From Georgenia sp. EYE_87 (GTDB lineage Bacteria; Actinomycetota; Actinomycetes; Actinomycetales; Actinomycetaceae), in contig NZ_JAHXNL010000003.1 of the NCBI RefSeq assembly GCF_023148685.1, positions 412,379 to 476,378 on the forward strand: 64,000 nt of DNA. Direction: 5' to 3'. Below, one piece after another: positions 9,614 to 25,419 of this stretch. The number at the start of each line of letters is the position of its first letter. The stretch's first letter is position 1. Under the pieces are notes generated by a model that searched no databases, had not been told where the DNA came from, and saw only the letters and a list, made by a program, of their open reading frames with translations. Position numbers and translations under genes: made by a program.

Positions 9614-10930
9614 CTACGCGGGTCGGGGCTCGGGCACCACCCAGGACCCGTCGCGCGGGCGCAGGGTCAGGAGCGGGTCGGGGACCAGCGGGCGGCCCGG
9701 CACCGGCCGGAGCCGCCAGCGCGCCAGGATGACGGCCAGCGTCAGGACACCCTCCGTCCAGGCGAAGGACTCGCCGATGCACTGCCGCGTCCCGCCCCCG
9801 AACGGGAAGTACGCGAAGCGCGGCCGGTCCGGCGCGGGGCCGAGGAACCGGTCCGGGTCGAAGGCCTCGGGGTCCGGCCACCAGCGGGCGTCGCGGTGGA
9901 CCACCCACTGCGGGGCGAGCAGGACCGTGCCGGCCGGGATCTCGACGTCGGCCACCTTGGTGCTCGCCCGGGCCTGGCGCCCCATGGTCCACGCCGGCGG
10001 GTAGAGCCGGAGCGCCTCCGCCATCACCGCCCGGGTGAGCGGAAGGCGTTCGAGGTCGTCGACCATCGGCACCCCGCCGTCGCCGCACGCCTCCCGCACC
10101 TCCGCGGCGACGCGGTCCTGGACGGAGGGGTGGCCGGCCAGGAGGTGACCGGCGAACGCCAGCGCGCTCGCGGTGGTCTCGTGCCCGGCCAGCAGCATGG
10201 TGACCACCTGGTCGCGCGCGTGACGCGGGTCGAAGTCCTCGAGCAGCAGCGAGAGCAGGTCCTCCCGCCCCGGTCCGCCCCGGGCGTGCTCCCCGACCAG
10301 CCGGGCGGTGAGGGTGTCCAGCGCCGCGGTGCCCCGGCGGACGCGCCCGCGGGTCGGCGGCAGCCGCACCAGGAGGTCACCCAGCGGCAGCATGAGGACC
10401 GGGTACGCCGAGAGCACGTCCCGCACGGCACCGGCCACCAGCTCCACGTCCTCGTCGAGGCGCGTGCCGAACAGCGTCCGGCCCGCCACGGTGAGCGTGG
10501 TCCGGACGGTCTGCGCGTGCAGGTCGAGCGGTCGGCCCGGCGTCCAGGAGCCGACGACGGCGACCGCGACGTCGACCATCTCCTCGGCGTACCGCGCCAC
10601 GCGCTGCCGGCTGAACGCGGTCTGCAGCAGCCGCCGGTCGTGCAGGTGCACGTCGCCCTCGCTCGTGAGCAGCCCGTCGCCGAGCACGGCCCGGGCGCGC
10701 CGAAGCACCGGGCTCTTCCCGAAGTCGTGCTGCCGGACGGTGAGCAGCTCGTGGACCGCGTCGGGGTGGGAGAGCAGGACGACGGCGGTGCCGCCGATGC
10801 GGAACGCGGCGGCGTCCCCGTGCTCGCGGGCGCACCGGGTGAGAAAACCCAGCCGGTCGCGGCGGAGCTGCAGCGCGTTGCCGACGAGCGGCGACGCGGC
10901 TGGTCCGGGCAGATCGGCCACCGTCCGCAC
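9614..10930 (-). CDS. Cytochrome P450
   Basis: A complete 438-residue P450 monooxygenase. The I-helix oxygen-binding motif AGHETT is at 248-253, the ExxR motif EALR at 305-308, the PERF-like segment FDPDRF near 357-362, and the heme-binding loop FPFGGGTRQCIGE with the proximal ligand C384. There is no N-terminal membrane anchor. The overall look (TMGRQARASTKVADVEIPAGT) is of a class that includes fatty-acid and terpenoid hydroxylases. It needs separate redox partners and none is adjacent. It is transcribed towards the MscS gene and ends 4 nt from it; it starts 63 nt downstream of the RpiB gene on the same strand. Substrate unknown. Confidence 0.93.
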   Translation of the reverse strand: MRTVADLPGPAASPLVGNALQLRRDRLGFLTRCAREHGDAAAFRIGGTAVVLLSHPDAVHELLTVRQHDFGKSPVLRRARAVLGDGLLTSEGDVHLHDRRLLQTAFSRQRVARYAEEMVDVAVAVVGSWTPGRPLDLHAQTVRTTLTVAGRTLFGTRLDEDVELVAGAVRDVLSAYPVLMLPLGDLLVRLPPTRGRVRRGTAALDTLTARLVGEHARGGPGREDLLSLLLEDFDPRHARDQVVTMLLAGHETTASALAFAGHLLAGHPSVQDRVAAEVREACGDGGVPMVDDLERLPLTRAVMAEALRLYPPAWTMGRQARASTKVADVEIPAGTVLLAPQWVVHRDARWWPDPEAFDPDRFLGPAPDRPRFAYFPFGGGTRQCIGESFAWTEGVLTLAVILARWRLRPVPGRPLVPDPLLTLRPRDGSWVVPEPRPA

Positions 10931-10993: not shown

Positions 10994-11482
10994 TCAGCGG
11001 CCGACGGGCTCGCTGTCGCCGGCCGGCGTCACCGACTCGTACTCGGAGAGGAGCGCGACCTTCTCGGCCGACGCCGAGGACTCGTCGAACCCGTGACCCA
11101 GCCACTCCCTGGCGAGCTTGCGCGCCAGCTCGAGCCCGATCACCCGCTGACCGAACGTGAGCACCTGGGCGTTGTTGGACTTGACGAGGCGCTCGACCGA
11201 GAAGGAGTCGTGGGCGACCGAGGCCCGGATGCCGGGCACCTTGTTGGCGGCCATCGCCACGCCGATGCCGGTGCCGCAGACCAGCAGCGCCCGGTCGGCC
11301 CGCCCCTCGGCGATCGTGCGGCCGGCGGCGACCCCGACGTGCGGGTAGGCGGTGTGCTCGTCGGCGCCGACGCCGACGTCGATGACCTCGTCGACGCGCT
11401 CGTCAGCCTCGAGGTCCCGCTTGAGGGCCTCCTTGTAGTCGAAGCCCGCGTCGTCCGAGCCGACGACGATCCTCAGTCCCAT
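10994..11482 (-). CDS. RpiB/LacAB-family sugar-phosphate isomerase (DerI/EryI-like)
   Basis: A 162-residue RpiB-type isomerase. It shows GSDDAG (8-13; usual RpiB is GSDHAG), the catalytic C69 in VCGTGIG, the NKVPGIRASVAHD segment and NNAQVLTFGQRVIG. Family members interconvert ribose/ribulose 5-phosphate, or D-erythrulose 4-phosphate and D-erythrose 4-phosphate (EryI/DerI). The second role is favoured because the DhaK-DhaL kinase gene ends 29 nt upstream in the same operon and a triosephosphate isomerase paralogue lies in the same regulon. The ATG at 11482 has GAGGGAG upstream. Confidence 0.88.
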   Translation of the reverse strand: MGLRIVVGSDDAGFDYKEALKRDLEADERVDEVIDVGVGADEHTAYPHVGVAAGRTIAEGRADRALLVCGTGIGVAMAANKVPGIRASVAHDSFSVERLVKSNNAQVLTFGQRVIGLELARKLAREWLGHGFDESSASAEKVALLSEYESVTPAGDSEPVGR

Positions 11483-11511
11483 GGTGTTCTCCCTCGTTCG
11501 TTGGTTCCTGG

Positions 11512-13236
11512 TCAGTTCTCGAGCAGTCCGGACTCGGCGACCGCCGACATGAGCAGGGCGAACGACGTCGCGCCCGGGTCCGGGGTGCCCACGGACTTCT
11601 CGCCGAGCACGCGCGAGCGGCCGCGCCGTGCCTGGATCTCCGCGGTGGCGCGGGCAGCGTGGGAGGCCGCCTCGGCGGCCTGCGCCCACGCCCGTGGCAG
11701 CGGGTCGCCCGAGGCGAACCGCTCGGTCAGCACGGTGGTGAAGGGCACGAGTGCGTCGACCATGGTCTTGTCGCCCGGTTCCGCACCGCCGAGCCGCTGG
11801 ACCGCCTGCCCGCCCTGCTCGACCGCACGGACGATGTCCGCCGACGCGGCCGGGGCGTCGTCGGAGAGCGCGGCGCCGGCGGCCGTGAGAGCACCGCCCC
11901 ACAGGGCGCCGGACGTCCCGCCCGCCGCCTCCGACCAGGCCTCACCCGCCCGGACGAGCAGGGTCCGCGCGCCGGCGCCCCGCGCGAGCGCGTCCGACGC
12001 GGCGCGCCAGGCTCCCGTGGTCCCGTAGCTCATGCCCTGCCCGTGGTCGCCGTCACCGGCGATCGCGTCCAGGCGGCCGAGCTCCGGCTCCGCGGCGACG
12101 GCCGTCGCCCTGAGGACCTCGAGGACGTCCGTGATCGCCTGCGCGAGCTCGCGCGACTCCGCGGAGGCCTCGGGGATCGGTTCGGCGGCGACGGCGTCGG
12201 CCGTCACCTCGCGCCGCCCGCGCTCCTGCACCGCTCCGCGGCGGTAGGCGATCGTGTCGACCGGAGCGACCCAGAGCTCCTCGAGCTCGGGGTCGAGGAA
12301 GGTGACGGTCAAGGACAGCCCGGCCATGTCGAGGGACGACATGAGCTCGCCGACCTCAGGCAGCACCGGGGTGAGGCCGGCGTCCTCGAGTCGCTGCGCG
12401 ACGCGCCCGTAGACGACGTAGAGCTCCTCGTTCTTCACCGTGCCGAGGCCGTTGAGGATCACGACGGCGCGTCCCTCGTACCCGTCTCGCCCGCGCGGCG
12501 GTTCCTCGGCGAGCACGCCGTCGACGAGCAGGTCCGCCACCTCGGCCGCGGTGCCCATCGGCACGTCGCGCACGCCCGGTTCGCCGTGGACGCCGAGCCC
12601 GACGCTCATCACGCCCGCAGGCACCCTGAACAGCGGCTCCGCGGCGCCGGGGAGCGTGCAGCCGTTGAACGCGACACCGAGGGAGCGCGTCCGGTCGTTG
12701 GCCCGGCGGGCGAGCCGCTCCACCGCGTCGAGGTCGTCGCCCCGCTCGGCGGCCGCGCCGGTGACCTTGAGGACGACGAGGTCGCCGGTCACCCCGCGCC
12801 GGTCCCGGTGGTTCTCCGGCGTGTTGGAGGCGACGTCGTCGGAGACCGCCAGCGTGCGCACGTCCAGCCCCTCGGCGCGGAGGCGCTCGGCGGCCTGGCC
12901 GAAGTGCAGGACGTCGCCGGCGTAGTTGCCGTACAGGAGCAGCACGCCGCCGCCGTTGTCGGCCGCGCGGACGACGGAGTACACCTGGGAGGCCGACGGC
13001 GACGCGAAGACGTTGCCGCAGGCGGCGCCGTGCGCCAGGCCAGGCCCCACCCACCCGGCGAAGGCCGGGTAGTGGCCCGAGCCGCCGCCGACGACGACGG
13101 ACACGGATCCGCGCGGGCTGTCCGTCGACCGCACGACACCGCCGTGAACGCGCTGGACGTGACCGGGGTGGGCCAGCGCCATGCCCGCCAGCGCTTCGTC
13201 CGAGAACTGCTTGGGGTCGTTGTAGAGGCGGGTCAT
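11512..13236 (-). CDS. DhaK-DhaL fusion kinase, probable erythrulose or sugar-acid kinase
   Basis: A 574-residue ATP-dependent kinase of the dihydroxyacetone kinase family. The DhaK half (about 1-335) has GGGSGHYPAF (50-59) and the His that covalently holds the keto substrate, H217 in GLGVHGEPG. The DhaL half (about 365-574) has the metal/ATP loop GDGDHG (394-399), GGTSGALWG and GDKTMVDAL. Actinobacterial relatives phosphorylate D- or L-erythrulose (DerK/LerK). In place of the usual GGGSGHEPAH it has HYPAF, so the substrate pocket may differ. The ATG at 13236 follows TAGGAG. The promoter region carries an operator-like palindrome at 13280-13291. It is the first gene of an operon with the RpiB isomerase. 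Confidence 0.88.
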   Translation of the reverse strand: MTRLYNDPKQFSDEALAGMALAHPGHVQRVHGGVVRSTDSPRGSVSVVVGGGSGHYPAFAGWVGPGLAHGAACGNVFASPSASQVYSVVRAADNGGGVLLLYGNYAGDVLHFGQAAERLRAEGLDVRTLAVSDDVASNTPENHRDRRGVTGDLVVLKVTGAAAERGDDLDAVERLARRANDRTRSLGVAFNGCTLPGAAEPLFRVPAGVMSVGLGVHGEPGVRDVPMGTAAEVADLLVDGVLAEEPPRGRDGYEGRAVVILNGLGTVKNEELYVVYGRVAQRLEDAGLTPVLPEVGELMSSLDMAGLSLTVTFLDPELEELWVAPVDTIAYRRGAVQERGRREVTADAVAAEPIPEASAESRELAQAITDVLEVLRATAVAAEPELGRLDAIAGDGDHGQGMSYGTTGAWRAASDALARGAGARTLLVRAGEAWSEAAGGTSGALWGGALTAAGAALSDDAPAASADIVRAVEQGGQAVQRLGGAEPGDKTMVDALVPFTTVLTERFASGDPLPRAWAQAAEAASHAARATAEIQARRGRSRVLGEKSVGTPDPGATSFALLMSAVAESGLLEN

Positions 13237-13279
13237 CGAAGATCTCCTAGCTCCGTCGCATCGAAGTCGTACAGCATGC

Positions 13280-13291
13280 ATCCTATTGGAT
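13280..13291. promoter_or_regulatory. Operator palindrome upstream of DhaK-DhaL gene
   Basis: ATCCTATTGGAT lies 43 nt upstream of the kinase start. It is the exact reverse complement of the element at 15210-15221 and differs by one base from that at 17378-17389. This is a probable binding site for the GntR regulator encoded at 14483-15190. Confidence 0.65.
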
Positions 13292-13408
13292 ATTGGCAGA
13301 CAAGTAGGTCAGTGGTGTGCGGTTGACGAGGGGGTGTTGGCAGGCTGTGGACCCAGTGGGGTTGTCGACCGTGGCGTTCCCGACGTCGGCGGTCACGCCA
13401 CCTGGCGA

Positions 13409-14392
13409 TCACGCCACGGTGGCGGGCTCCACGTCCGGCGTGACCGTCCCCGAGCGCAGCGTCAGCTTGGCCGCGAGGATGGTGCGCAGGTAGTCCCGGT
13501 TCCTGGCGGCCACGGACAGCCCGTCGCCCCCGTAGTGCTCGACGCAGAACGTCCCGGCGAAGCCGGCGTCGAGCGCCATGTCGACGACCGCCCGGTAGTT
13601 GATGAAGCCGAGCTCGAGCGGGGCGGGCGCGCTGAAGTAGGCCCCGGTCGCGACGTCGAGGTCGCGGTAGTAGTTCTTCACGTGCATGTAGTTGGTGTAC
13701 GGCAACATCTTCTCGAACTGCGTGCGCCAGTCCTCGACCGGCCGGTGGAGGCGGACGAGGTTGCCGACGTCGGGGTTGAGGCCGACGTTCTCCAGCCCGA
13801 TGTCCGTGACCATGCGCACGCACGAGTCCGCGGTGCCCAGGTAGGTGTCCTCGTACATCTCGAGGGAGAGTGCCACCCCGCGCTCGGCCGCGTACGCGCC
13901 CAGCTCGCGGAACGTCGACACGGCGTGGCGGTACACCTCTGGGTCCTCGGGGTCGGCGGCCCCCGGCTCGTGCCAGAACCACATGGCGGCCTGCTGGTCA
14001 GCCGTGAGCGCCTGGTGCAGGCCGAGGCAGACGGTGTCCACCCCGAGCGCGACCGCCGCGTCGATCGTGCGGTACGAGTACGCGACGTTGGCCTCGGCGG
14101 CAGCGGCGTCGTGGTCGATGATCGAGCGGCGCGAGACCGAGATCGCGCTGACGCCCAGACCCTCCTGGAGCAGCAGCCGCCGGAGCGCGTCCAGGCGCGG
14201 GGCCGCCAGGTCCCCGACCGGGAGCCACGTGTCGGTGAGGTCGACGTGGTCGAAGCCTGCGAGCCGGACCTCGCGGAGAACGCCGGCCCACGCCGCGTCG
14301 TCGGCCATGGTCGTGCTTGTGCCGTCCGGCAGCGTGCCGGGATACTGCAGCAGCGCGGCGCCGATGGGCCACGTCTCAGATGTCCAGGACAA
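13409..14392 (-). CDS. Xylose-isomerase-like TIM-barrel sugar-phosphate epimerase/isomerase
   Basis: A 327-residue protein of the AP-endonuclease-2/xylose-isomerase-like TIM-barrel family. Typical strands and metal-site residues are visible: GFDHVDLTDTW, VSRRSIIDHD, DTVCLGLHQ, ALSLEMYEDT (metal Glu), NVGLNPDVGN (Asp), YMHVKNYYRD (His) and TFCVEHYGGD (Glu). EryC-type racemases of erythritol catabolism belong to this fold, and here the gene sits with a DhaK-DhaL kinase, an RpiB isomerase and a TPI paralogue. A step on a tetrulose or sugar acid is therefore likely, but the reaction is unproven. It is transcribed divergently from the GntR gene, from the shared region 14393-14482. Confidence 0.82.
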   Translation of the reverse strand: MSWTSETWPIGAALLQYPGTLPDGTSTTMADDAAWAGVLREVRLAGFDHVDLTDTWLPVGDLAAPRLDALRRLLLQEGLGVSAISVSRRSIIDHDAAAAEANVAYSYRTIDAAVALGVDTVCLGLHQALTADQQAAMWFWHEPGAADPEDPEVYRHAVSTFRELGAYAAERGVALSLEMYEDTYLGTADSCVRMVTDIGLENVGLNPDVGNLVRLHRPVEDWRTQFEKMLPYTNYMHVKNYYRDLDVATGAYFSAPAPLELGFINYRAVVDMALDAGFAGTFCVEHYGGDGLSVAARNRDYLRTILAAKLTLRSGTVTPDVEPATVA

Positions 14393-14420
14393 CGGTGTCT
14401 CCTTCGCAGGCTCTCCAGAG

Positions 14421-14439
14421 ATCCTGGAGCATATAGGAT
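14421..14439. promoter_or_regulatory. Operator-like repeat between epimerase and GntR genes
   Basis: An inverted repeat ATCCT (14421-14425) and AGGAT (14435-14439), continuing as CATATAGGATGTTGG, lies in the 90-nt region shared by two divergent genes. The ATAGGAT half matches the palindrome at 15210-15221. It could serve autoregulation of the GntR gene and control of the epimerase. Confidence 0.5.
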
Positions 14440-14482
14440 GTTGGTGAGAGTACTACATGATCGATCTCGATAGGGGCTACGC

Positions 14483-15190
14483 ATGGTGACTCGCACGACG
14501 CATCTGACCCGGAAGGTGCTGAGGGACGACGTCCACGACGCCCTGCTGGAGATGCTCATGACACAGCAGCTCGCCCCGGGGCAGTCCCTGAGCATCGACT
14601 CGCTGGCCCGCCAGCTGGGCGTCTCGCCGACGCCGGTGCGCGAGGCGCTGGTGGAGCTCGAGCACACCGGTCTCGTCACGCGCGCCGCCCTCAAGGGCTA
14701 CACGGTCACGTCCCCGCTCTCCGCGCGGCAGATGGCCGAGCTGATCGACGCGCGGCAGGTGATCGAGCTCGCCGCGGTGGAGCGCGCCGTGCGGGCCGCC
14801 GGCATCGTGGAGACGCTCAAGGGCGTCCACGCGGACCACGAGGCGGTGATCCGGCGCTACGGCCTCGACGGGCCGGCCGGGGTCCGCGAGGCCTCCCAGG
14901 ATCAGATCCTGGAGTACTTCCGGGCGGACTGGGCGTTCCACGAGGCGATCATCCGGTCGTGCGGGAACCGCTTCATCCAGCAGATGGCGTCCATCCTGGG
15001 CGCGAACGTCCACCGGATGCGCCAGACCATGGACGTGGGCCTGACCGACGCCATGGACGCCCTCCACGAGCACGCCGAGATCGTGGCGGCGTTCGAGAGC
15101 GGCGACCCGGCCACCGCCGTCGAGGCGATGCGCAGGCACCTCGACCTGGTCTCCGGGCGGGCGCAGGCGGAGGCCGCAACACCGGAGTAG
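14483..15190 (+). CDS. GntR-family regulator, FadR/FCD subfamily
   Basis: A 235-residue transcription regulator. The N-terminal winged helix (about 10-80) has the hallmark SIDSLARQLGVSPTPVREAL and LEHTGLVTRAALKGYTV. The C-terminal all-helical FCD ligand domain contains the metal-site residues expected for this subfamily (DARQVIELAAVERA, DWAFHEAIIRSCGN, LHEHAEIVAAFESGD). FCD regulators usually bind a carboxylate or sugar-acid effector, in line with the carboxylate transporter and PdxA-like dehydrogenase in the cluster. It lies centrally between leftward and rightward catabolic genes. Matching ATCC-N4-GGAT palindromes occur in all surrounding promoter regions. The start ATG 14483 has only a weak ribosome site. 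Confidence 0.9.
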   Translation: MVTRTTHLTRKVLRDDVHDALLEMLMTQQLAPGQSLSIDSLARQLGVSPTPVREALVELEHTGLVTRAALKGYTVTSPLSARQMAELIDARQVIELAAVERAVRAAGIVETLKGVHADHEAVIRRYGLDGPAGVREASQDQILEYFRADWAFHEAIIRSCGNRFIQQMASILGANVHRMRQTMDVGLTDAMDALHEHAEIVAAFESGDPATAVEAMRRHLDLVSGRAQAEAATPE

Positions 15191-15209
15191 CGTTGGACAT
15201 AGATCCAAC

Positions 15210-15221
15210 ATCCAATAGGAT
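15210..15221. promoter_or_regulatory. Operator palindrome upstream of pdxA2-like gene
   Basis: ATCCAATAGGAT, the exact reverse complement of the 13280-13291 element, lies 20 nt after the GntR stop and about 170 nt before the PdxA-like start. A further half-like GATCC lies 4 nt upstream. Probable GntR operator. Confidence 0.65.
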
Positions 15222-15392
15222 CGCTCCATGCCCTCGGAGCACCCGAGGGCGGTCGGCTCGACGGGGAGCGCGTGGTCCCGCGGCACGGCTCGTGCGGGCG
15301 TCCGACGCGGCCGCCTCGTCGCGAGCGGCTGAGCCCGCCTCGCGGGCAGCCACGGCGTGCTCCCCGGGCACGTCACTACTACGAGGAGAACC

Positions 15393-16406
15393 ATGACCAT
15401 GACCGATGCGACCCGCCCCCGGCTCGCGCTCACGCTGGGCGACCTCTCAGGGGTCGGTCCCGAGCTGGCGATGAAGCTGCTCGCCGTGGAGGAGAACCGG
15501 GAGAAGGCGGAGATCTACCTGCTCGCCTCCCAGGCCGAGGTGGACCGGTTCGCCGCGGAGGTGGGCGTGCAGGTGCCGACGGCGACCGTCCCGGGGCCGG
15601 GCACGGTCACGCTCGTCGGCTCGAAGCTGGCCGACCGCCCGGTCGAGCGGGGCGTCGCGTCCACCGCCGGCGGCGCCAGGGTGCTCCAGGACCTGCTCGA
15701 CTGCCTCGAGCTGTACAAGCGGGGCAAGGTCGACTCGATCATGTTCCTCTCGCTCAACAAGTCCGCGCTGCACGACGCCGGCATGCACGAGGAGGACGAG
15801 CTCCGGTGGTTCGCCAAGGAGCTGGACCACGACGGCGTGACGTCGGAGCTCAACTTCGTCCCCGGCCTCACGACCTCCCGGGTGACGTCCCACTGCGCGA
15901 TCAAGGAGGTCCCGGAGCGCATCAGCGCGCGCTCCGTGCTCGACGCGATCCGCCTGCTCAACGACGTCGTCAGCGCGAACGGCGTCGAGCGGCCCCGGCT
16001 CGCGGTGTGCGCGCTGAACCCGCACGCGGGGGAGAGCGGCCAGTTCGGACGCGAGGAGATCGACCACATCGCACCCGGCGTCCGGCTGGCGCAGGTCGAG
16101 GGCATCGACGCGCGGGGGCCGTACCCCTGCGACACCATCTTCATCGCGGCGCGCGACGGGGAGTACGACGGCGTCGTGACGATGTACCACGACCAGGGGC
16201 AGATCGCGATGAAGCTCATGGGCTTCGACCAAGGGGTGACCGTCCAGGGCGGCCTGCCCGTGCCGATCGCGACGCCGGCGCACGGCACCGCCTACGGGAT
16301 CGTCGGGCAGAACAAGGCAAACCTGGGCCCTACGCAGCGGGCGTTCGACATCGCGGTGCAGCTCGGTCGCCGGACGCTGCAGGAGCGTGTTCCCGCGTCC
16401 GTCTGA
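15393..16406 (+). CDS. PdxA2-type phosphorylated sugar-acid dehydrogenase/decarboxylase
   Basis: A 337-residue homologue of 4-hydroxythreonine-4-phosphate dehydrogenase. The family motif appears as TLGDLSGVGPEL (usual TxGDPxGIGPE). The three metal-binding histidines are present: H167 in SRVTSHCAIKE, H211 in NPHAGESGQFG and H266 in MYHDQGQ. The context is catabolic, not vitamin B6 synthesis, so PdxA2 is the better label. PdxA2 proteins oxidatively decarboxylate 4-phospho-D-threonate or 4-phospho-erythronate to dihydroxyacetone phosphate. The usual partner, a DUF1537 kinase, is absent; the DhaK-DhaL protein may supply the phosphate. The ATG at 15393 follows GAGGAG. An operator-like palindrome lies upstream. 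Confidence 0.87.
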   Translation: MTMTDATRPRLALTLGDLSGVGPELAMKLLAVEENREKAEIYLLASQAEVDRFAAEVGVQVPTATVPGPGTVTLVGSKLADRPVERGVASTAGGARVLQDLLDCLELYKRGKVDSIMFLSLNKSALHDAGMHEEDELRWFAKELDHDGVTSELNFVPGLTTSRVTSHCAIKEVPERISARSVLDAIRLLNDVVSANGVERPRLAVCALNPHAGESGQFGREEIDHIAPGVRLAQVEGIDARGPYPCDTIFIAARDGEYDGVVTMYHDQGQIAMKLMGFDQGVTVQGGLPVPIATPAHGTAYGIVGQNKANLGPTQRAFDIAVQLGRRTLQERVPASV

Positions 16407-16417
16407 CGGGGGACGCC

Positions 16418-16443
16418 AGGGGCCGGCCGACGGGCCGGCCCCT
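16418..16443. terminator. Bidirectional hairpin between convergent genes
   Basis: An 11-bp perfect stem AGGGGCCGGCC / GGCCGGCCCCT with a 4-nt loop lies between the convergent PdxA2-like and TPI genes, 12 nt after one stop and 39 nt before the other. No U-run follows, as is usual in such G+C-rich DNA. Confidence 0.6.
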
Positions 16444-16481
16444 CCGGCGCGCCCGGGACCGCGGGGGAGGTCCGCGCCCGC

Positions 16482-17243
16482 TCAGGCGCGGCCGTCGCCC
16501 GCCCTGGCGGCCGCCTCGTCGATCACCTGGGCCAACGCCGCGGGGTCGTGGGCGAAGCGTCCGAGGAAGAGGCCGTCGACGGCGTCGCCGAGCTCGGTGA
16601 GCAGGCCGGGGCCCGCCGAGCCGCCGTAGACGAGCGTGGTCTCGCGCCCCGCTGCGGCAAGGTCCGCCCGGATCATGGCGCAGACGGCGCGGACGTGGTC
16701 GGCCGGTGCGGGCTCGGCCGCACCGATCGCCCAGTACGGCTCGTAGGCGATCCACACCTCGGAGCTGGCGGTGACCTCGGCGAGGGCCCGCTCCACCTGG
16801 CGGACGCACTCACGGGCGGCGGCCTCCGGCGTCGTGCGCCCCGCCTCGCCGACGCACAGCAGCGGGGTGAGGCCGTTGCGCACGGCCGCCGCCGTCTTGG
16901 CGGCCACCATGGCATCGTCCTCGCCGAAGATCGTGCGCCGTTCGGCATGGCCGATCTCCACGCAGGAGCAGCCCAGTGCCGCGAGGTCCGCGCCGGAGAC
17001 CTCGCCGGTGAAGGCGCCCCGATCGGCGGGGCAGAGGTCCTGCGCGCCGACGAGCGCCGCCGTGGACGACAGGGCCTCGCACGCCGCCGACAGGGTAAGA
17101 AAGTCCGGCAGCACCGCCAGGCGCACGTCACCGGCGGCGACTGCGGTGCGGCCGGCCAGGTCCCGCACGGCGTCGAGGTACTCCAGGGAGCGCGCACGGT
17201 CGAAGTACATCTTCAGGCTCACTGCCACGAGCGGTCTGTTCAT
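16482..17243 (-). CDS. Triosephosphate isomerase paralogue (LerI/EryH-like)
   Basis: A 253-residue TIM-barrel isomerase with all TPI catalytic residues: K11 in SLKMY (glycolytic TPI has NWKMN), H99 in EIGHAERR and E168 in AYEPYWAIG, plus the phosphate loop VYGGSAGP. The changed entry motif and its place in a sugar-catabolic regulon argue for a specialised paralogue. EryH/LerI enzymes of this family convert L-erythrulose 1-phosphate to D-erythrulose 4-phosphate, the substrate of the RpiB-type isomerase. Alternatively it converts dihydroxyacetone phosphate made by PdxA2. The ATG at 17243 has GGAGG upstream and diverges from the transporter operon over a shared operator. Confidence 0.87.
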   Translation of the reverse strand: MNRPLVAVSLKMYFDRARSLEYLDAVRDLAGRTAVAAGDVRLAVLPDFLTLSAACEALSSTAALVGAQDLCPADRGAFTGEVSGADLAALGCSCVEIGHAERRTIFGEDDAMVAAKTAAAVRNGLTPLLCVGEAGRTTPEAAARECVRQVERALAEVTASSEVWIAYEPYWAIGAAEPAPADHVRAVCAMIRADLAAAGRETTLVYGGSAGPGLLTELGDAVDGLFLGRFAHDPAALAQVIDEAAARAGDGRA

Positions 17244-17376
17244 CAGATCCTCCGGGATCGGGGGGACGGCGGGCGGAGTGCGGCGCCCGGGCCCCCGGTC
17301 GAGGCCGCCGGGAAGGGCGCCGCGCGATTCGATTGCGCCAGGGCTCCGTGAGGTGGCACACTCCCTCCTGTAATAG

Positions 17377-17390
17377 ATCCTATGGGATCG
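17377..17390. promoter_or_regulatory. Operator palindrome between TPI-like and tctB genes
   Basis: GATCCTATGGGATC, with perfect GATCC/GGATC arms, lies in the 223-nt region between the divergent TPI-like and transporter genes. It matches the elements at 13280 and 15210 and probably controls both directions. Confidence 0.65.
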
Positions 17391-17466
17391 ATGCTGTAGT
17401 GATGGTCGAGCATGGTGGCTCGCTTGCAAGGAGGCAACCGTCGATGAAGAAGCACAGGGGTAGGTC

Positions 17467-18009
17467 GTGAACGTCAGCGGCGCGAGACTCGCCACTGGGC
17501 CCTGGGTGATGCGGCTGGTGCTGCTCGCCCTCGGCGTCGCCGCGCTGGTCGGCGGCTCCAGCTACGGCCTGCGGACCGCCGAAGGGCTCGTCGGCGCCGG
17601 TCTGATGCCCGCCCTCGCCGGGTTCGTCATGGTCGTCGCGTCCCTGTGGGACGGCGCCAGGGCGTTGCGCGACGCGCGCGCCGCGGTCGCCGTCGACGCG
17701 GAGGCGGCCGCCGTGCCGGAAGCGGCCGACGAGGCGGGCGAGCTCGACGTCTTCGGCCGCAGGGCCGGGCAGCGCAACCGCGCCGTGCTCATGGTCTTCG
17801 CCGTGATCCTGCTGGCCGTGCTCCTCTCCCACGTCGTGGGCCTGCTCCTCGCGCTGACCGCCATGGTCGTCGTGCTGCTGGGCGTGGTGGAGAAGATGCC
17901 GTGGTGGGTGGCGCTCGTCGGTGGCGCCGCCGCCTTCCTCTTCGGGTACCTGGTGTTCGGCGTGGCGCTCAACGTGCCGCTGCCCACCGGGATGCTCGGC
18001 CTGGTCTGA
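17467..18009 (+). CDS. tctB: Tripartite tricarboxylate transporter small membrane subunit (TctB)
   Basis: A 180-residue membrane protein with the TctB layout: two hydrophobic segments near the N-terminus (about 16-34 and 45-62), a charged loop rich in Ala/Glu, and a long C-terminal hydrophobic stretch in two helices, ending NVPLPTGMLGLV, which is typical of the family. The GTG start at 17467 follows CAGGGG. It is first in a tctB-tctA-tctC operon and is followed after 12 nt by tctA. With them it forms a secondary, binding-protein-dependent importer of carboxylates. Confidence 0.85.
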   Translation: MNVSGARLATGPWVMRLVLLALGVAALVGGSSYGLRTAEGLVGAGLMPALAGFVMVVASLWDGARALRDARAAVAVDAEAAAVPEAADEAGELDVFGRRAGQRNRAVLMVFAVILLAVLLSHVVGLLLALTAMVVVLLGVVEKMPWWVALVGGAAAFLFGYLVFGVALNVPLPTGMLGLV

Positions 18010-18021
18010 GAGAGAAGACAG

Positions 18022-19578
18022 ATGCTCGAGAACATCGCCCTGGGATTTCAGACCTCGCTGACCCCCGAGAACCTGCTCTGGTGCTTCATCGGTGTGGTCC
18101 TCGGGACCGTCATCGGCATGCTGCCGGGCCTCGGCGCCACCACCGGCGTCGCCATCCTGCTGCCGCTGACGCTCAGCATGGAGCCGGTCACGGCGCTCAT
18201 CATGCTCGCCGGGATCTACTACGGCTGCCAGTACGGCGGCACGATCGCAGCGGTGCTGATCGCGACGCCTGGTGACGCCAACGCCGTCGCCACGGTGGTC
18301 GACGGCTATGCGCTCGCCCGCAAGGGGCAGGCCGGCAAGGCGCTCGCGATCGCCGCCATCGGCTCCTTCGTGGCAGCGATCCTCTCGCTCGTCCTCCTCA
18401 TGCTGATCGCGGCCCCGATCGCCACCTTCGCGCTCCGGTTCGGTCCGGCCGAGATGCTGGCGATCATGATCATGGGCCTGCTCACGATCATCTCCTTCTC
18501 CGGCGACAACCTGGCGAAGGGCCTGATCATGGCGGGGCTGGGCATCCTGCTCTCCACCGTCGGGATGTCCTCGGGCTTCGCGGAGTCCCGGTTCACCTTC
18601 GGCAGCGTCAACCTGCTCGGCGGCATCGACTTCGTCGTCGTCATGATCGGCGTCTTCGCGATCGGCGAGGTCGTCAGCCAGATCGGCACCGGCGGCGTCG
18701 AGCCCATCCGCACCCGCATGCGCGACATGGTGATCCGGTTCAGCGACGTCAAGGCCTCGTTCTCCGCGATCCTGCGCGGGAGCGGCATCGGCTTCGCGCT
18801 CGGCACCCTGCCCGGGGCCGGCTCGACGCTGGCCGCCCTCGTCGGCTACGGCGTCGAGAAGCAGGTGAGCCCGAACCGCAAGGAGTTCGGCAAGGGTGCG
18901 ATCCAGGGAGTGGCCGCCGCGGAGTCGGCGAACAACGCCGCCGCGAACGCGAACTTCATCCCCACCCTCGCGCTCGGCGTCCCCGGCGGCACGACGACGG
19001 CCGTCCTCCTCGGCGCCTTCGTCATGTACGGCGTCCAGCCCGGACCGCTGCTGTTCGAGAACCAGCCCGGCCTGGTCTGGGGCCTGCTGACGTCGTTCTT
19101 CATCGGCAACGTCATCCTGCTGGTGCTCAACCTGCCGCTCGCGCCCGCCTTCGCGCAGGTGCTGCGCATGCGCTACACGTACCTGTACCCGGCGATCATC
19201 TTCTTCAGCATGATGGGCGCGTTCGCGGTCCAGAACAACCTGTTCGCCCTCCCCGTGCTGCTGGCGGCGGGCGTCGGCGGCTTCTTCATGAAGAAGTTCG
19301 ACTACCCGACGGCGCCGCTGATTCTCGGCCTCGTCCTCGGCCCGATGGTCGAGAAGGCGCTCGTGCAGACCTCGTCCTTCGCGAACGGCGATCTCACGGT
19401 GATCTTCACCGAGCCGCTCTCCCTGGCGATCCTCGTCGCGACGGCGCTGATCATGCTCGTGCCGACGGTCGCCAAGCGCATCGCGGGCCGCGGCGGGCCC
19501 GTCCCGGCCGGTCCGGCCCCCGCCGGGCCCGCCACCACCTCCGACGACGTCCCGGTCAGGACCGGCGCCGAGGAGTGA
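18022..19578 (+). CDS. tctA: Tripartite tricarboxylate transporter large permease (TctA)
   Basis: A 518-residue polytopic membrane protein with the TctA signatures: GMLPGLGATTGVAILLPLT near the N-terminus, YYGCQYGGTIAAVLIATPGD, and later LPGAGSTLAALVGYGVEK, AAESANNAAANANFIPTLALG and VPGGTTTAVLLGAF. About eleven to twelve hydrophobic segments are visible. The last about 35 residues are Pro/Ala-rich and cytoplasmic or exposed. It carries the substrate delivered by the TctC lipoprotein using an ion gradient. The ribosome site GAGAGAAG precedes the ATG. Confidence 0.93.
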   Translation: MLENIALGFQTSLTPENLLWCFIGVVLGTVIGMLPGLGATTGVAILLPLTLSMEPVTALIMLAGIYYGCQYGGTIAAVLIATPGDANAVATVVDGYALARKGQAGKALAIAAIGSFVAAILSLVLLMLIAAPIATFALRFGPAEMLAIMIMGLLTIISFSGDNLAKGLIMAGLGILLSTVGMSSGFAESRFTFGSVNLLGGIDFVVVMIGVFAIGEVVSQIGTGGVEPIRTRMRDMVIRFSDVKASFSAILRGSGIGFALGTLPGAGSTLAALVGYGVEKQVSPNRKEFGKGAIQGVAAAESANNAAANANFIPTLALGVPGGTTTAVLLGAFVMYGVQPGPLLFENQPGLVWGLLTSFFIGNVILLVLNLPLAPAFAQVLRMRYTYLYPAIIFFSMMGAFAVQNNLFALPVLLAAGVGGFFMKKFDYPTAPLILGLVLGPMVEKALVQTSSFANGDLTVIFTEPLSLAILVATALIMLVPTVAKRIAGRGGPVPAGPAPAGPATTSDDVPVRTGAEE

Positions 19579-19700
19579 CCCCCAGTCCGGAGGCCCGCAC
19601 GGTCTCTCCGGTTCGCACGACCCCTCGTCCCCGGCGTCCCGCCGCGGACGGGACCCACCCCCGTCTCGCAACGAAGTTCGGTCAAGGAGGACTTATCACC

Positions 19701-20684
19701 ATGTCTGTTCGCAGAGCAGCAGGAATCGTCGCAGGGCTCGGAGCCGCGGCTCTGACGCTGGGCGCATGCTCCGGCGGGAGCTCGTCGGCCGGCGAGGGCG
19801 CCGGCGCCGAGAGCTTCGACCCGGGCGACCGGCTCACCATGATCGTGCCGATGGGCCCGGGCGGGGGCTCCGACCTCTCCGGCCGGTCGATCGCGTCCGG
19901 TCTCGAGGAGGTCACCGAGAAGACGATCTCGGTGGAGAACCAGGAGGGCGGCGGCGGCGCCGTCGGCTACGCGAACTTCCTGGGGCTGGAGGGCGACCCG
20001 TCCTACCTGCTGGCCACGGAGACCGCCCTCGTCAACCTCGCGCTGACGGAGGACGTGCCGTTCAGCTGGGAGTCGTTCACGCCGATCATGAAGGTCGGCC
20101 AGGACTCCACCATCATGGTGGTCCCCGCCGGCGCCTCGTACGGCACCTGCACCGACGTCGTCGACGCCGCCCGGGCGGGCGACGTCAAGGTCTCCGTCTC
20201 CGGCGGTGTCACGGGCAACGACGCCATCCAGTTCGGCCTCATCGAGAAGGACCAGGACGTCGCCTTCCAGCGCGTGCCCTACGAGTCGGGCGGCGAGGCG
20301 ATCGCCGCCGTGCTCGGCGGCCACGTCGACGTCGCACTGACCAACCCGGGAGAGGTCATCGGGCAGCTCGAGTCCGGCGACCTCAAGGCTCTCTGCGTGA
20401 TCGCCGAGGAGCGCTACGAGTACGAGGACCTCGCCGACATCCCGACGACCGTGGAGCAGGGCATCGACGTCACGTTCTCCCAGTACCGCGGCATCATCGC
20501 TCCGGGCGGCATCGCCGACGAGGCCAAGGAGTACTGGATCGAGGCCAGCAAGGAGTACGTCGAGACCGAGTCCTTCAAGGAGTACATGTCGGCCAACTTC
20601 ATGCAGGCCGACCCGCTCTTCGGCGACGACTTCGTCTCCTACCTGGAGCAGTACGAGGCCGACCTGGCGGCCGGCCTCGAGTAG
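19701..20684 (+). CDS. tctC: TctC-type extracytoplasmic solute-binding lipoprotein
   Basis: A 327-residue binding protein of the TctC/Bug family. The signal is MSVRRAAGIVAGLGAAALTLGAC with a lipobox Cys, then a Gly/Ser linker. The ligand region shows the family feature VPMGPGGGSDLSGRSIASGL, which clamps a carboxylate, and YESGGEAIAAVLGGHVDVALTNP. Bug proteins commonly bind di- or tricarboxylates and sugar acids, so the regulon likely takes up an acidic sugar. The ATG at 19701 has the strong ribosome site AAGGAGG 10 nt upstream. The 122 nt after tctA contain no gene. A strong terminator follows. Confidence 0.92.
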   Translation: MSVRRAAGIVAGLGAAALTLGACSGGSSSAGEGAGAESFDPGDRLTMIVPMGPGGGSDLSGRSIASGLEEVTEKTISVENQEGGGGAVGYANFLGLEGDPSYLLATETALVNLALTEDVPFSWESFTPIMKVGQDSTIMVVPAGASYGTCTDVVDAARAGDVKVSVSGGVTGNDAIQFGLIEKDQDVAFQRVPYESGGEAIAAVLGGHVDVALTNPGEVIGQLESGDLKALCVIAEERYEYEDLADIPTTVEQGIDVTFSQYRGIIAPGGIADEAKEYWIEASKEYVETESFKEYMSANFMQADPLFGDDFVSYLEQYEADLAAGLE

Positions 20685-22585: not shown

Positions 22586-22664
22586 CACGTGCTCGCCCGG
22601 ATGGCGGACCACCGTCTACCCTGCCCAGCACACGGCACCCCTCCGCCGAAAGGACCAGACCATC

Positions 22665-23663
22665 ATGAAGCGCCCCGTGCGTCTCCTCGGCGCCCTCGCG
22701 GCGTCGGCCCTTCTCCTCGCCGGGTGCGGCTCGGGCGGCGGCGACGCCGACCCCGCCGCGGACGGCACCGGCGCCGCGGCCGGCGAGACCGTCGAGATCG
22801 GCATCACCCAGATCGTCTCCCACGCCTCCCTCGACGCCGCCCGTGAGGGCTTCAAGCGCGCTCTGGAGGAGAACGGGATCGACGCGAACTACGACGAGCA
22901 GAACGCGCAGGGCGACCAGACCACCGCGACCTCGATCGCCAACACCTTCGCCTCGGACGGCAAGGACCTGGTGCTCGCCATCGCGACGCCGACGGCGCAG
23001 GCCGCGGCGCAGGCGATCACGGACATCCCGGTCCTGTTCACCGCCGTCACCGAGCCCGCCGAGGCCGGCCTCGTCGACAGCTGGGAGGCGCCCGGGGGCA
23101 ACCTCACCGGCACCTCGGACCTCAACCCGGTCCGCGAGCAGCTCGAGCTGCTCGCGGAGATCGCGCCGGACGCGAGGACGGTGGGCATCGTCTACAGCTC
23201 CGGCGAGGTCAACTCCCAGGTGCAGGTCGATCTCGCGAAGGAGGCGGCCGCGGAGCTGGGTCTGACGATCGAGGAGGCCACCGTCAGCACCTCCGCCGAG
23301 GTGCAGCAGGCGGCCCAGTCCCTCGAGGTTGACGCGTTCTACGTGCCCACGGACAACGCCGTCGTCAATGCCCTGGAGTCGGTCATCGCCGTCGCCGAGC
23401 AGCGTCAGATCCCGATGGTCGTCGGGGAGTCCGACAGCGTCGAGCGGGGCGGCCTCGCCACCTACGGCATCGACTACGACAAGCTCGGCTACCAGACCGG
23501 CCTCATGGCGGTGAGGATCCTCCAGGAGGGGGCCGACCCGGCCGAGATGCCGGTGGAGACGCTCGACGAGCTCACCCTCGTCGTCAACCAGGGCGCCGCC
23601 GAGCGCATGGGCGTGGAGATCCCCCAGACCGTCCTCGACCACGCCGACACGGTCGTCGAGTAG
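22665..23663 (+). CDS. ABC importer substrate-binding lipoprotein (COG2984 type)
   Basis: A 332-residue lipoprotein with signal MKRPVRLLGALAASALLLAGC and a Gly/Asp-rich linker. The two-lobed binding domain begins EIGITQIVSHASLDAAREGF and contains ANTFASDGKDLVLAIATPTA, FTAVTEPAEAG, GTSDLNPVREQLELL and TDNAVVNALESVIAVAEQ, all typical of the ABC-substrate-binding (TrpX-like) family. Firmicute relatives carry aromatic amino acids; the substrate here is unknown. It heads an operon whose next gene starts 4 nt after its stop. The operon's downstream ATP-grasp and CocE-like enzymes suggest an amide- or ester-linked substrate. Confidence 0.88.
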   Translation: MKRPVRLLGALAASALLLAGCGSGGGDADPAADGTGAAAGETVEIGITQIVSHASLDAAREGFKRALEENGIDANYDEQNAQGDQTTATSIANTFASDGKDLVLAIATPTAQAAAQAITDIPVLFTAVTEPAEAGLVDSWEAPGGNLTGTSDLNPVREQLELLAEIAPDARTVGIVYSSGEVNSQVQVDLAKEAAAELGLTIEEATVSTSAEVQQAAQSLEVDAFYVPTDNAVVNALESVIAVAEQRQIPMVVGESDSVERGGLATYGIDYDKLGYQTGLMAVRILQEGADPAEMPVETLDELTLVVNQGAAERMGVEIPQTVLDHADTVVE

Positions 23664-23667
23664 TCCG

Positions 23668-24570
23668 GTGGTCGTCGCCGTCGAGCTCGGCCTCATCTAC
23701 GCCGTCATGGCGCTGGGGGTCTACCTCACCTTCCGCATCCTCGACTTCCCCGACCTCACGGTCGACGGGTCATTCACCACGGGCGGTGCGACGGCGGCGA
23801 CCCTCATCATCTCGGGCACCCCGCCCCTCCTGGCGACGGCGGTGGCGGGGGTGGCGGGTCTCCTCGCCGGCGTCGTCACCGGGCTGCTGCACACCAAGGG
23901 CAAGATCAACGGGCTCCTGGCGGGCATCCTCACCCAGATCGGGCTCTACTCGATCAACCTGCGGATCATGGGGAACAAGGCCAACCTGCCCCTGCTCCGC
24001 GAGGAGACGTTGTTCACCCCGCTGCGGGACTCGGCGCTGCTCGGCACCCTCGCCGCGGTGGGCATCTTCGCCGTCGGCGCACTCGTCCTCAAGCTGATCC
24101 TCGACTGGTTCCTCCACACCGACATCGGTCTGGCGATGCAGGCCACCGGCGACAACGAGGAGATGATCCGCTCGCTCGGCGTCACCACCGACGGCATGAA
24201 GGTGCTCGGCCTGGCGCTGTCGAACGGCCTGGTGGCCGTGTGCGGTGCCCTCATCGCGCAGTACCAGGGCTTCTCCGACGTCGGCATGGGCATCGGCCTC
24301 ATCGTCGCCGGTCTGGCGTCCGTCATCATCGGCCAGGCGATCGTCGGTCAGCGGGTCATCTTCATCGCCACCCTCGCCGTCGTCGTCGGCTCGGTCCTCT
24401 ACCGCGTCGTCATCCAGCTCGCCCTTCAGGCGGGCCTCGAGGCCAACGACATGAAGCTCGTCTCCGCCGTGCTCGTGGTCTTCGCGCTGGTGCTGCCGCA
24501 GTGGTCGGTGCTGCGGCGGTTCCGGCCGGCGCGGCGGCTGCGCGCGGTGACGTCCGGGGCGGAGGCGTGA
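23668..24570 (+). CDS. ABC importer permease (COG4120 type)
   Basis: A 300-residue integral membrane protein of the branched-chain-amino-acid/ribose permease fold with eight or nine hydrophobic segments. Characteristic stretches are LGVYLTFRILDFPDLTVDGSF close to the N-terminus and GLALSNGLVAVCGALIAQYQ with GMGIGLIVAGLASVIIGQ in the second half. The GTG start at 23668 lies 4 nt after the binding-protein stop. Its TGA overlaps the start of the ATPase gene (ATGA-type coupling), so the three importer genes are translated together. Confidence 0.88.
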   Translation: MVVAVELGLIYAVMALGVYLTFRILDFPDLTVDGSFTTGGATAATLIISGTPPLLATAVAGVAGLLAGVVTGLLHTKGKINGLLAGILTQIGLYSINLRIMGNKANLPLLREETLFTPLRDSALLGTLAAVGIFAVGALVLKLILDWFLHTDIGLAMQATGDNEEMIRSLGVTTDGMKVLGLALSNGLVAVCGALIAQYQGFSDVGMGIGLIVAGLASVIIGQAIVGQRVIFIATLAVVVGSVLYRVVIQLALQAGLEANDMKLVSAVLVVFALVLPQWSVLRRFRPARRLRAVTSGAEA

Positions 24571-25361
24571 TGCTCGACGTCGACAACGTCACCAAGACCT
24601 TCTTCCCCAACAGCGTCAACGAGCGGGTCGCGCTGCGCGATCTCGACCTGCACCTGACGGAGGGCGAGTTCGTCACCGTCATCGGGTCCAACGGGGCCGG
24701 GAAGTCGACCCTGCTGAACATCGTCTCCGGCAAGATGCGACCGGAGACGGGCGCCGTGCGGATCGGTGGGCGCGACGTCACCCGCCTCGCCGACTTCCAG
24801 CGCGCCCGCTACATCGGCCGGGTCTTCCAGGACCCGATGGCCGGGACCGCCCCTCACATGACCATCGAGGAGAACCTCGCCATCGCGCTCGAGCGCGGCC
24901 GACGGCGGGGCCTTCGCCGTGGGGTCACGGGCGCCAAGCGCGACCGCTTCCGCGTCGAGCTGGCCAGCCTCGAGCTCGGGCTGGTGAACCGGCTCAAGGC
25001 CAAGGTCGGGCTGCTCTCCGGCGGGCAGCGCCAGGCGCTGTCCCTGCTCATGGCCACCTTCTCCGAGCCGCAGATCCTCCTCCTCGACGAGCACACCGCG
25101 GCCCTGGACCCCCAGCGTGCGGCGCTCATCACCAGGCTGACGGCCGAGCTCGTCGAGCGGCACCGCCTGACGACCCTCATGGTCACCCACAACATGGAGC
25201 AGGCCCTGAGCATGGGCACGCGGCTCGTGATGATGCACGAGGGCACGATCATCCTCGACGTCGACGACGCCCGGAAGTCCCGGATGACCCCGGCCGACCT
25301 GCTGGCCGAGTTCGAGAAGATCAAGGGCGGCGGTCTGGACGACCGCACCCTGCTGCAGTAG
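24570..25361 (+). CDS. ABC importer ATPase (COG1101 type)
   Basis: A 263-residue ATP-binding subunit. It has Walker A GSNGAGKST, the Q-loop region VFQDPMAGTAPHM, the signature LSGGQRQAL, Walker B ILLLDEHTAALDP and the switch His in VTHN. The insert between Q-loop and signature (ERGRRRGLRRGVTGAKRDRF) is basic and typical of this subgroup. The start overlaps the permease stop. It energises the transporter formed with the two genes upstream. Confidence 0.92.
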   Translation: MLDVDNVTKTFFPNSVNERVALRDLDLHLTEGEFVTVIGSNGAGKSTLLNIVSGKMRPETGAVRIGGRDVTRLADFQRARYIGRVFQDPMAGTAPHMTIEENLAIALERGRRRGLRRGVTGAKRDRFRVELASLELGLVNRLKAKVGLLSGGQRQALSLLMATFSEPQILLLDEHTAALDPQRAALITRLTAELVERHRLTTLMVTHNMEQALSMGTRLVMMHEGTIILDVDDARKSRMTPADLLAEFEKIKGGGLDDRTLLQ

Positions 25362-25419
25362 GCGGCGGTAGCACCCGTCCGGCCGAGGTGCGACGATCGT
25401 CCTCTCCGGAAGGACGCGC

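Follow-up and report, generated by a model that had tools for sequence, protein, structure and literature searches.

Which compound does a bacterium degrade with a gene cluster that combines a carboxylate-type importer, a dehydrogenase of the PdxA family and a set of enzymes that resemble those of tetrulose phosphate metabolism? The question is raised by a stretch of 64,000 nt (hereafter the window) from Georgenia sp. EYE_87 (GCF_023148685.1, NZ_JAHXNL010000003.1, positions 412,379-476,378), whose genome comprises 4.35 Mb in 38 contigs at a completeness of 99%. We propose, and give the proposal an even chance of being correct, that the cluster is a GntR-controlled catabolic unit for an unphosphorylated five-carbon (C5) sugar acid, which is degraded via L-erythrulose. 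The proposal builds on features that were read directly from the sequence, namely the gene content, predicted operators, a recurrent module, a swap of the dehydrogenase within this module and a change at the phosphate site of the PdxA-family protein.

In the proposed route, TctABC would import the unphosphorylated C5 sugar acid, the PdxA-family enzyme would oxidise its C3 hydroxyl to yield a 3-keto acid, and a presumably metal-dependent TIM barrel would decarboxylate the 3-keto acid to L-erythrulose. The fused kinase DhaKL would convert L-erythrulose to L-erythrulose 1-phosphate, the paralogue of triosephosphate isomerase (TPI) would turn the latter into D-erythrulose 4-phosphate, and RpiB would finally generate D-erythrose 4-phosphate, which enters the pentose phosphate pathway. 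We infer all of these reactions, their order and the substrate. The downstream half leading to erythrose 4-phosphate appears very likely and a C5 substrate reasonably probable, but the estimates for the parts of the pathway are strongly correlated and are not to be multiplied.

All nine genes are present at positions 10994-20684 according to open reading frame calls, Pfam, NCBIfam and inspection of the starts, with Pfam E-values from 3e-12 (TctB) to 4e-150 (TctA):

10994-11482, minus strand: RpiB-family isomerase (PF02502, 148 bits; TIGR02133, 197 bits)
11512-13236, minus strand: fused DhaK-DhaL kinase (DhaKL), proposed L-erythrulose 1-kinase in the role of LerK (PF02733 and PF02734)
13409-14392, minus strand: xylose-isomerase-like TIM barrel with TTG start, proposed beta-keto-acid decarboxylase yielding L-erythrulose (PF01261, 99 bits)
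14483-15190, plus strand: GntR/FCD regulator of the cluster (PF00392, PF07729)
15399-16406, plus strand: PdxA-family dehydrogenase, proposed 3-dehydrogenase of an unphosphorylated sugar acid (PF04166, 252 bits)
16482-17243, minus strand: TPI-family paralogue (PF00121)
17467-18009, plus strand: TctB (PF07331)
18022-19578, plus strand: TctA permease (PF01970)
19695-20684, plus strand: TctC solute-binding protein (PF03401)

Elsewhere the genome carries another RpiB (contig C33), another TPI (contig C1) and two further Dak1 genes, while a genome-wide search found no second PdxA, so that the cluster protein is the sole copy. The grouping of the genes is not due to chance, because other genera carry the same genes together and alphaproteobacterial plasmids do so without TPI and RpiB.

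The recurrent module and its dehydrogenases

The genes for TIM barrel, kinase, RpiB and TPI recur together as a module. The sample consisted of 119 distinct loci, composed of 40 stretches of up to 20 kb from genomes of the same order (fetched for 40 matches; 77 of 297 genomes had matches), 80 named records kept from at least 535 confirmed relatives, and the window, minus two duplicates (L079, the same as L034, and L094, the same as L040). The loci were chosen by their TIM-barrel gene, are related to one another and are rich in Arthrobacter, and some of them stop at a contig edge. The presence of genes was scored by tblastn, with "near" denoting a distance of up to 10 kb from the TIM-barrel gene. 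Accordingly scored, DhaKL is near at 103, RpiB at 96, TPI at 79 and GntR at 84 of the 119 loci. Relatives of the TIM-barrel gene are also carried by 94 plasmid records, and on plasmids of Shinella, Paracoccus and Sinorhizobium medicae GntR, PdxA, Tct, TIM barrel and DhaKL are found together. Named carriers of the form with PdxA include Phytoactinopolyspora, Isoptericola, Prauserella, Nocardiopsis, Micromonospora, Saccharopolyspora, Streptomyces and Haematomicrobium.

The dehydrogenase of the module is PdxA-like at 17 loci and of the 3-hydroxyacyl-CoA-dehydrogenase (HCDH) type at 87 (the representative tested matched PF02737 and PF00725); no locus has both, and 15 have neither. The 87 HCDH-type loci show the module near the TIM barrel as well (DhaKL 79, RpiB 75, TPI 62, GntR 57). 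The mutual exclusion of the two types has a Fisher p-value of 3e-12, which is overstated by kinship and the many Arthrobacter loci, and clustering at 75% identity leaves 12 PdxA versus 17 HCDH among 37 clusters. TctA is near at 16 of the 17 PdxA-type loci (the exception, L087, is a truncated stretch) versus none of the 87 HCDH-type loci. A tree built from 56 TIM-barrel proteins requires seven changes between the PdxA and HCDH states, and proteins with different states are sisters in two cases: the pair L071 (HCDH) and L073 (PdxA) is fully supported, and support is weaker for the pair L061 (HCDH) and L063 (PdxA). One and the same type of TIM-barrel enzyme thus seems to work with unrelated dehydrogenases, one step being swapped. 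Enzymes of both families oxidise hydroxyl groups that are beta to a carboxyl group or a thioester, and the alternation of the states on the tree points to one reaction, oxidation of the beta-hydroxyl, performed by different folds.

Among the 15 loci with neither type, six have just an L-threonate-dehydrogenase-like protein nearby and nine have none of the three, several of these ending at contig edges. A possible third form is seen at L119, L141, L145, L064, L072 and L084, where an L-threonate-dehydrogenase-like protein lies near the TIM barrel with no PdxA and no HCDH type at 40% identity or more; L119, L141 and L145 show a distant match to a GntP-type transporter (29-31%). At five further loci (L035, L036, L038, L042 and L043), the HCDH-type module is preceded by a glycosidase-like protein, ATP-binding cassette (ABC) sugar-transporter genes, an aldo-keto reductase and a short-chain dehydrogenase/reductase. 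The glycosidase-like protein is GH39-like by eye and matches an alpha-1,4-L-rhamnosidase model weakly. This form suggests an intracellular origin of the acid from a sugar.

Predicted operators of the GntR regulator

A GntR gene is near the TIM-barrel gene at 17 of 17 PdxA-type loci. As operator consensus we used the 20-base palindrome ATAGATCCTATAGGATCTAT, drawn from relatives and from the window's own gap between TPI and tctB. Allowing up to five mismatches, the palindrome occurs in the cluster gaps of 14 of the 17 PdxA-type loci, the window counted, and was not found at L034, L078 and L137. With up to six mismatches the window contains four sites, each lying between genes of this cluster; five block shuffles gave none. 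The 12-base core with up to two mismatches has four matches in 64 kb compared to 0.12 expected, a number reached in 0 of 100 shuffles; with up to one mismatch it has three matches in the 4.35 Mb genome, each of which lies in the cluster, while the pattern read backwards yields zero matches genome-wide. The window site at 17373 contributed to the consensus and is therefore not an independent test; the three remaining window sites and the count over the whole genome do provide one. Outside the PdxA form, 12 of the 102 loci have an operator match with up to four mismatches. The predicted operator cores in the window are:

13280-13291: predicted core ATCCTATTGGAT, upstream of the unit formed by the kinase and RpiB genes
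14428-14439: weaker predicted core AGCATATAGGAT, between the TIM-barrel gene and gntR (two mismatches, the weakest site)
15210-15221: predicted core ATCCAATAGGAT, upstream of the pdxA-like gene
17377-17388: predicted core ATCCTATGGGAT, between the divergent TPI and tctBAC genes

These sites cover each transcription unit, and with a predicted operator before every unit the cluster looks like one local GntR regulon. The original prediction for this DNA had described nine genes lying together, which our analysis confirms, and a regulon centred on GntR with a carboxylate importer (TctBAC), which it supports.

Two neighbouring regions are outside the genes scored in the module or beyond the cluster. 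A cytochrome P450 gene at 9614-10930, on the strand of RpiB, adjoins the cluster. At positions 22662-28730 of the window, an ATP-grasp protein and a peptidase of the S15 family come after a PF04392-type ABC transporter, whose binding protein and ATPase were assigned by Pfam and whose permease was recognised by eye.

Enzymes of the proposed route and rival assignments

To characterise the dehydrogenase we compared 46 PdxA proteins, 17 from the module and 29 others of the same phylum, the latter being the loci returned from 36 matches outside the own genome. The three metal-binding histidines and a lysine are kept in 46 of 46 proteins, the histidine triad hence in all 17 module members. We further compared four positions that we take to be H136, T137, N283 and R292 of Escherichia coli PdxA and to contact the phosphorylated substrate. 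All 17 module proteins are changed at these positions (H136 to E, T137 to L or M, N283 to T, R292 to I or V), whereas the 29 others kept T137 and R292 in 29, H136 in 27 and N283 in 26 cases. Three alphaproteobacterial module proteins show the same kind of change. As the residues for the phosphorylated substrate are changed in all 17, a substrate other than the usual phosphate ester is probable, and we regard an unphosphorylated acid as likely. Terephthalate dihydrodiol dehydrogenase (4aty), a distant match of the window protein, provides a family precedent as a PdxA-fold enzyme acting on an unphosphorylated acid.

The same comparison bears on a route of the PdxA2 kind, in which the PdxA-family enzyme would convert a 4-phosphorylated tetronate to dihydroxyacetone phosphate (DHAP) next to a separate tetrulose branch. 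For this route speak the PdxA2-type structures 2hi1 (first) and 6e85 (third) among the closest solved relatives of the window protein, as well as two DUF1537 kinases elsewhere in the genome, whose existence counts against our proposal. However, the four positions changed in 17 of 17 module proteins make a phosphorylated substrate unlikely, there is no DUF1537 kinase within the cluster, and no close operator match was found in 18 kb around either of the two elsewhere. The window protein also reaches 169 bits on the model of D-threonate-4-phosphate dehydrogenase (cut-off 583), although every PdxA model stays under its cut-off, including the general one (233 bits, cut-off 290). Taken together, we consider this route highly improbable. 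One DUF1537 kinase (contig C23, ~94 kb; L195), ~330 kb away from the cluster, has no close operator match; its neighbours, judged by eye, resemble an isocitrate-dehydrogenase-type protein and a GntR regulator.

The predicted model of the TIM barrel has a pLDDT of 91. The protein matches 5tnv from Mycobacterium smegmatis (E 4e-91; structural alignment with 46% identity and a TM score of 0.89), an entry that has no function attached and is not named in the openly licensed PubMed Central (PMC) papers searched. The residues that we take to be metal ligands, E178, D208, H237 (Q in 12) and E285, are kept at 119 of 119 loci, as are the basic residues R88, R214, K239 and R243, with R217 kept in 118; such a site suits an anionic substrate. 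Placed between a dehydrogenase and a tetrulose kinase, the TIM barrel would in its simplest role decarboxylate a 3-keto acid, which we estimate to be fairly probable.

Among 102 loci and records matching over more than 400 residues, the kinases closest to the window DhaKL are those of L056, L061 and L062 (64-65%). At L061 and L062, the kinase is part of a same-strand run with a PGDH_C protein, a family to which we assign the oxidoisomerase of apionate degradation, and a second TIM barrel, which we take to be 3-oxo-isoapionate decarboxylase by context only. This similarity supports, though it does not prove, the role of LerK for the window kinase. With 36% and 31% identity to the other copies in the genome, the TPI and RpiB of the cluster look like specialised paralogues. 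The other TPI obtains a family score of 314 bits versus 186 bits for the window TPI. The latter shares 49% identity with its counterpart in the Erwinia plasmid cluster L192. The TPI slot was assessed at 80 loci including L192, of which 55 have a window-like and 25 an L074-like (LerI/11ef type) protein, and none of the 80 is closest to the genome's other TPI. At the sister locus L074, the best match of the TPI is the L-erythrulose-1-phosphate isomerase structure 11ef (211 bits versus 154 for the next). The window RpiB is above the cut-off of the ribose-5-phosphate isomerase model TIGR02133. The further Dak1, TPI and RpiB genes of the genome, together with the identities and scores given for TPI and RpiB, make it unlikely that kinase, TPI and RpiB are mere housekeeping copies. 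The window-type TPI has the stretches SLKMYF, GHAERR and GRFAHD in common with the "putative TPI" 3s6d, a fungal protein that may also be an erythrulose-phosphate isomerase.

Several observations weigh against the route via L-erythrulose. The window TPI is nearer to 3s6d and to true TPIs than to LerI (11ef is fifth), and the window RpiB scores 143 bits on the DerI model NF051858, whose cut-off is 240. The 17 PdxA-type loci show GntR in 17 but DhaKL in 12, RpiB in 11 and TPI in 13 cases; DhaKL, RpiB and TPI are all missing at L078 and L093, despite 10 kb on both sides, and at L063 within the stretch examined. The alphaproteobacterial plasmid clusters have no TPI and RpiB alongside. PdxA enzymes can decarboxylate unaided, which would make a separate decarboxylase unnecessary, and the folds that follow 5tnv among the 50 matches listed are an isomerase (Art22), UlaE, ketose 3-epimerases and others at 12-20% identity, so that an epimerase role is possible for the TIM barrel. 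Finally, the data would be compatible with more than one carbon number and stereochemistry of the substrate.

Some of these points feed the main rival, a route from a C4 acid to dihydroxyacetone. Here, the PdxA-family enzyme would oxidise an unphosphorylated tetronate, decarboxylation would follow, DhaKL would produce DHAP and the TPI paralogue would pass it to glycolysis, with RpiB being incidental. For such a route the Shinella cluster, having GntR, PdxA, Tct, TIM barrel and DhaKL alone, would be sufficient, and it would agree with the low number of PdxA-type loci with RpiB nearby. In Paracoccus (L190) the operon extends further, with genes for a SAF-domain protein, for a 3-oxo-tetronate kinase and for an aldolase, and a C4-acid route may share this operon. 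Against it, RpiB accompanies the TIM barrel across most of the 119 loci, the TPI slot of sister loci holds a LerI relative, and the Georgenia genome encodes a second TPI whose family score is far higher. In addition, a locus of erythritol type on the Paracoccus plasmid, ~45 kb away from the operon, has a LerI-like TPI next to an RpiB, a pair resembling EryH/EryI. When the plasmid record alone was searched, RpiB was present and a LerI-like TPI absent in S. medicae, and neither was found in Shinella. On balance the C4 route seems unlikely to us.

The second rival assigns the decarboxylation to the PdxA-family enzyme, which would convert a D-pentonate to D-erythrulose, and makes the TIM barrel a tetrulose 3-epimerase that would supply L-erythrulose to the same downstream enzymes. 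The ketose 3-epimerases among the nearest named folds listed and the decarboxylation known from PdxA chemistry are in line with this assignment. HCDH relatives, in contrast, are not known to decarboxylate, yet the HCDH-type loci keep the TIM barrel (by which, however, the loci were chosen), and the route would be a detour, since D-erythrulose can be phosphorylated at C4 directly, as by DerK of M. smegmatis. We therefore regard it as distinctly unlikely and retain the TIM barrel as candidate decarboxylase of the L-erythrulose route.

Substrate and comparison with known systems

The best solved relative of TctC is 25hk, a binding protein of the tripartite tricarboxylate transporter (TTT) type (E 3e-42) that names no ligand, and more distant relatives include terephthalate-binding proteins. 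The best fit to the L-erythrulose route is a linear L-pentonate (L-xylonate, L-lyxonate, L-arabinonate or L-ribonate), since each of these would yield L-erythrulose upon oxidation at C3 and loss of C1. A branched C5 acid, D-apionate or isoapionate, would instead enter an apionate-like route with a different first enzyme. The downstream gene types are as in the Erwinia cluster with its PGDH_C protein and second TIM barrel, the kinases closest to the window DhaKL sit with this pair at L061 and L062, and isoapionate, a 2-hydroxymethyl tetronate, would still fit. Yet PGDH_C was not found in the own genome although it was found in the control relatives G118 and G275 (14 standard control genomes gave no match), which makes D-apionate unlikely, and C3 of apionate carries no hydrogen, so that PdxA chemistry is inapplicable. 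The window TIM barrel moreover shares only 27% identity over 98 residues with the second TIM-barrel family (E 0.008), and we judge a branched acid improbable. The pair of PGDH_C protein and second TIM barrel occurs at L061, L062, L063, L069 and L192, together with DhaKL, RpiB and TPI at L061, L062 and L192; at L061, L062, L063 and L069 it lies within the same stretch as the TIM barrel of the present module.

L-lyxonate and L-xylonate arise from plant ascorbate (PMC11066805). In its most specific form, the L-erythrulose route would be a hitherto undescribed pathway for linear L-pentonates such as L-xylonate or L-lyxonate from vitamin C breakdown, in which the PdxA fold has moved from phosphorylated to free acids and the 5tnv-family TIM barrel acts as decarboxylase. 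At least two unrelated dehydrogenase families (PdxA and HCDH, perhaps also the L-threonate-dehydrogenase-like one as a third) would have taken each other's place more than once in this step, every one of them together with importers of its own. We put this version forward tentatively, as somewhat more doubtful than an even bet.

The original prediction had considered a C5 acid decarboxylated to a tetrulose as well as a tetrulose branch, and both ideas gain support, the latter from the recurrence of the module with DhaKL, RpiB and TPI and from the LerI-type TPI of sister loci. Its version of the decarboxylation, directly to erythrulose phosphate, probably has the order wrong, as oxidation and decarboxylation would come first and the kinase after them. 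The label PdxA2-type does not hold up in view of the altered residues and the missing DUF1537 kinase, and apionate, given as an example, is unlikely because its tertiary C3 needs an oxidoisomerase. The statement that no described route combines these enzymes is only partly right: we found no description of the gene combination, a weak negative as the literature consisted of openly licensed PMC papers only, but the apionate route reported by Carter et al. (2018) shares the downstream half.

The recurrent module, with its at least 119 distinct loci and the 94 plasmid records that have a relative of its TIM-barrel gene, receives a concrete and testable proposed route. If true, the route would provide the first function for the 5tnv TIM-barrel family, correct the vitamin B6 annotation of PdxA proteins such as those in Shinella and Paracoccus, add another case of one catalytic step repeatedly replaced by unrelated enzymes and perhaps reveal a bacterial sink for plant-derived C5 acids.

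The L-erythrulose kinase of the tetritol branch of M. smegmatis is of Dak type, like the window DhaKL. This branch (EltD, LerK, LerI, DerI) and EryH/EryI of Brucella employ a TPI-fold and an RpiB-fold isomerase to reach erythrose 4-phosphate, as would the proposed route (PMC10733421, PMC12780249, PMC5992420). Equipped with LerI, DerI, EltD and LerK, an E. coli strain converts L-threitol or erythritol to erythrose 4-phosphate (PMC10733421). Unlike the tetritol branch, the cluster has no tetritol dehydrogenase, and entry would be via the PdxA-family enzyme, the TIM barrel and the carboxylate-type importer. With PdxA2, the D-threonate-4-phosphate dehydrogenase, the cluster protein shares the PdxA fold, the metal ligands and the proposed oxidation of C3 beta to the carboxylate, but it differs in its residues for the phosphorylated substrate, and the cluster differs in having no DUF1537 kinase.

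A parallel chemistry, one carbon longer, is provided by animal L-gulonate 3-dehydrogenase and beta-ketogulonate decarboxylase, which lead to L-xylulose; this route differs in that its decarboxylase is a DUF1907 protein and not a TIM barrel and that its product is a C5 ketose (PMC12435205). The HCDH-type protein of L060 matches lambda-crystallin, which is L-gulonate 3-dehydrogenase, with an E-value of ~1e-27, behind other members of the family.

The D-apionate route resembles the cluster in leading from a sugar acid through a beta-keto acid and L-erythrulose to erythrose 4-phosphate, and in having a TIM-barrel gene beside dehydrogenase and kinase genes. According to Carter et al. (2018), it reportedly consists of an oxidoisomerase, 3-oxo-isoapionate decarboxylase and then LerK, LerI and DerI, and we take the Erwinia plasmid cluster L192 (RpiB, DhaKL, TPI, second TIM barrel and PGDH_C) to encode it. 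Another apionate branch uses an oxidoisomerase, a kinase and a 4-phosphate decarboxylase (PMC11747546). The present cluster, unlike the D-apionate route, has no PGDH_C protein, its TIM barrel belongs to another subfamily and the proposed acid is linear. It would be a case of a known logic, from sugar acid to L-erythrulose, with new parts: a PdxA enzyme turned to another use and a TIM barrel of a family that has no known function.

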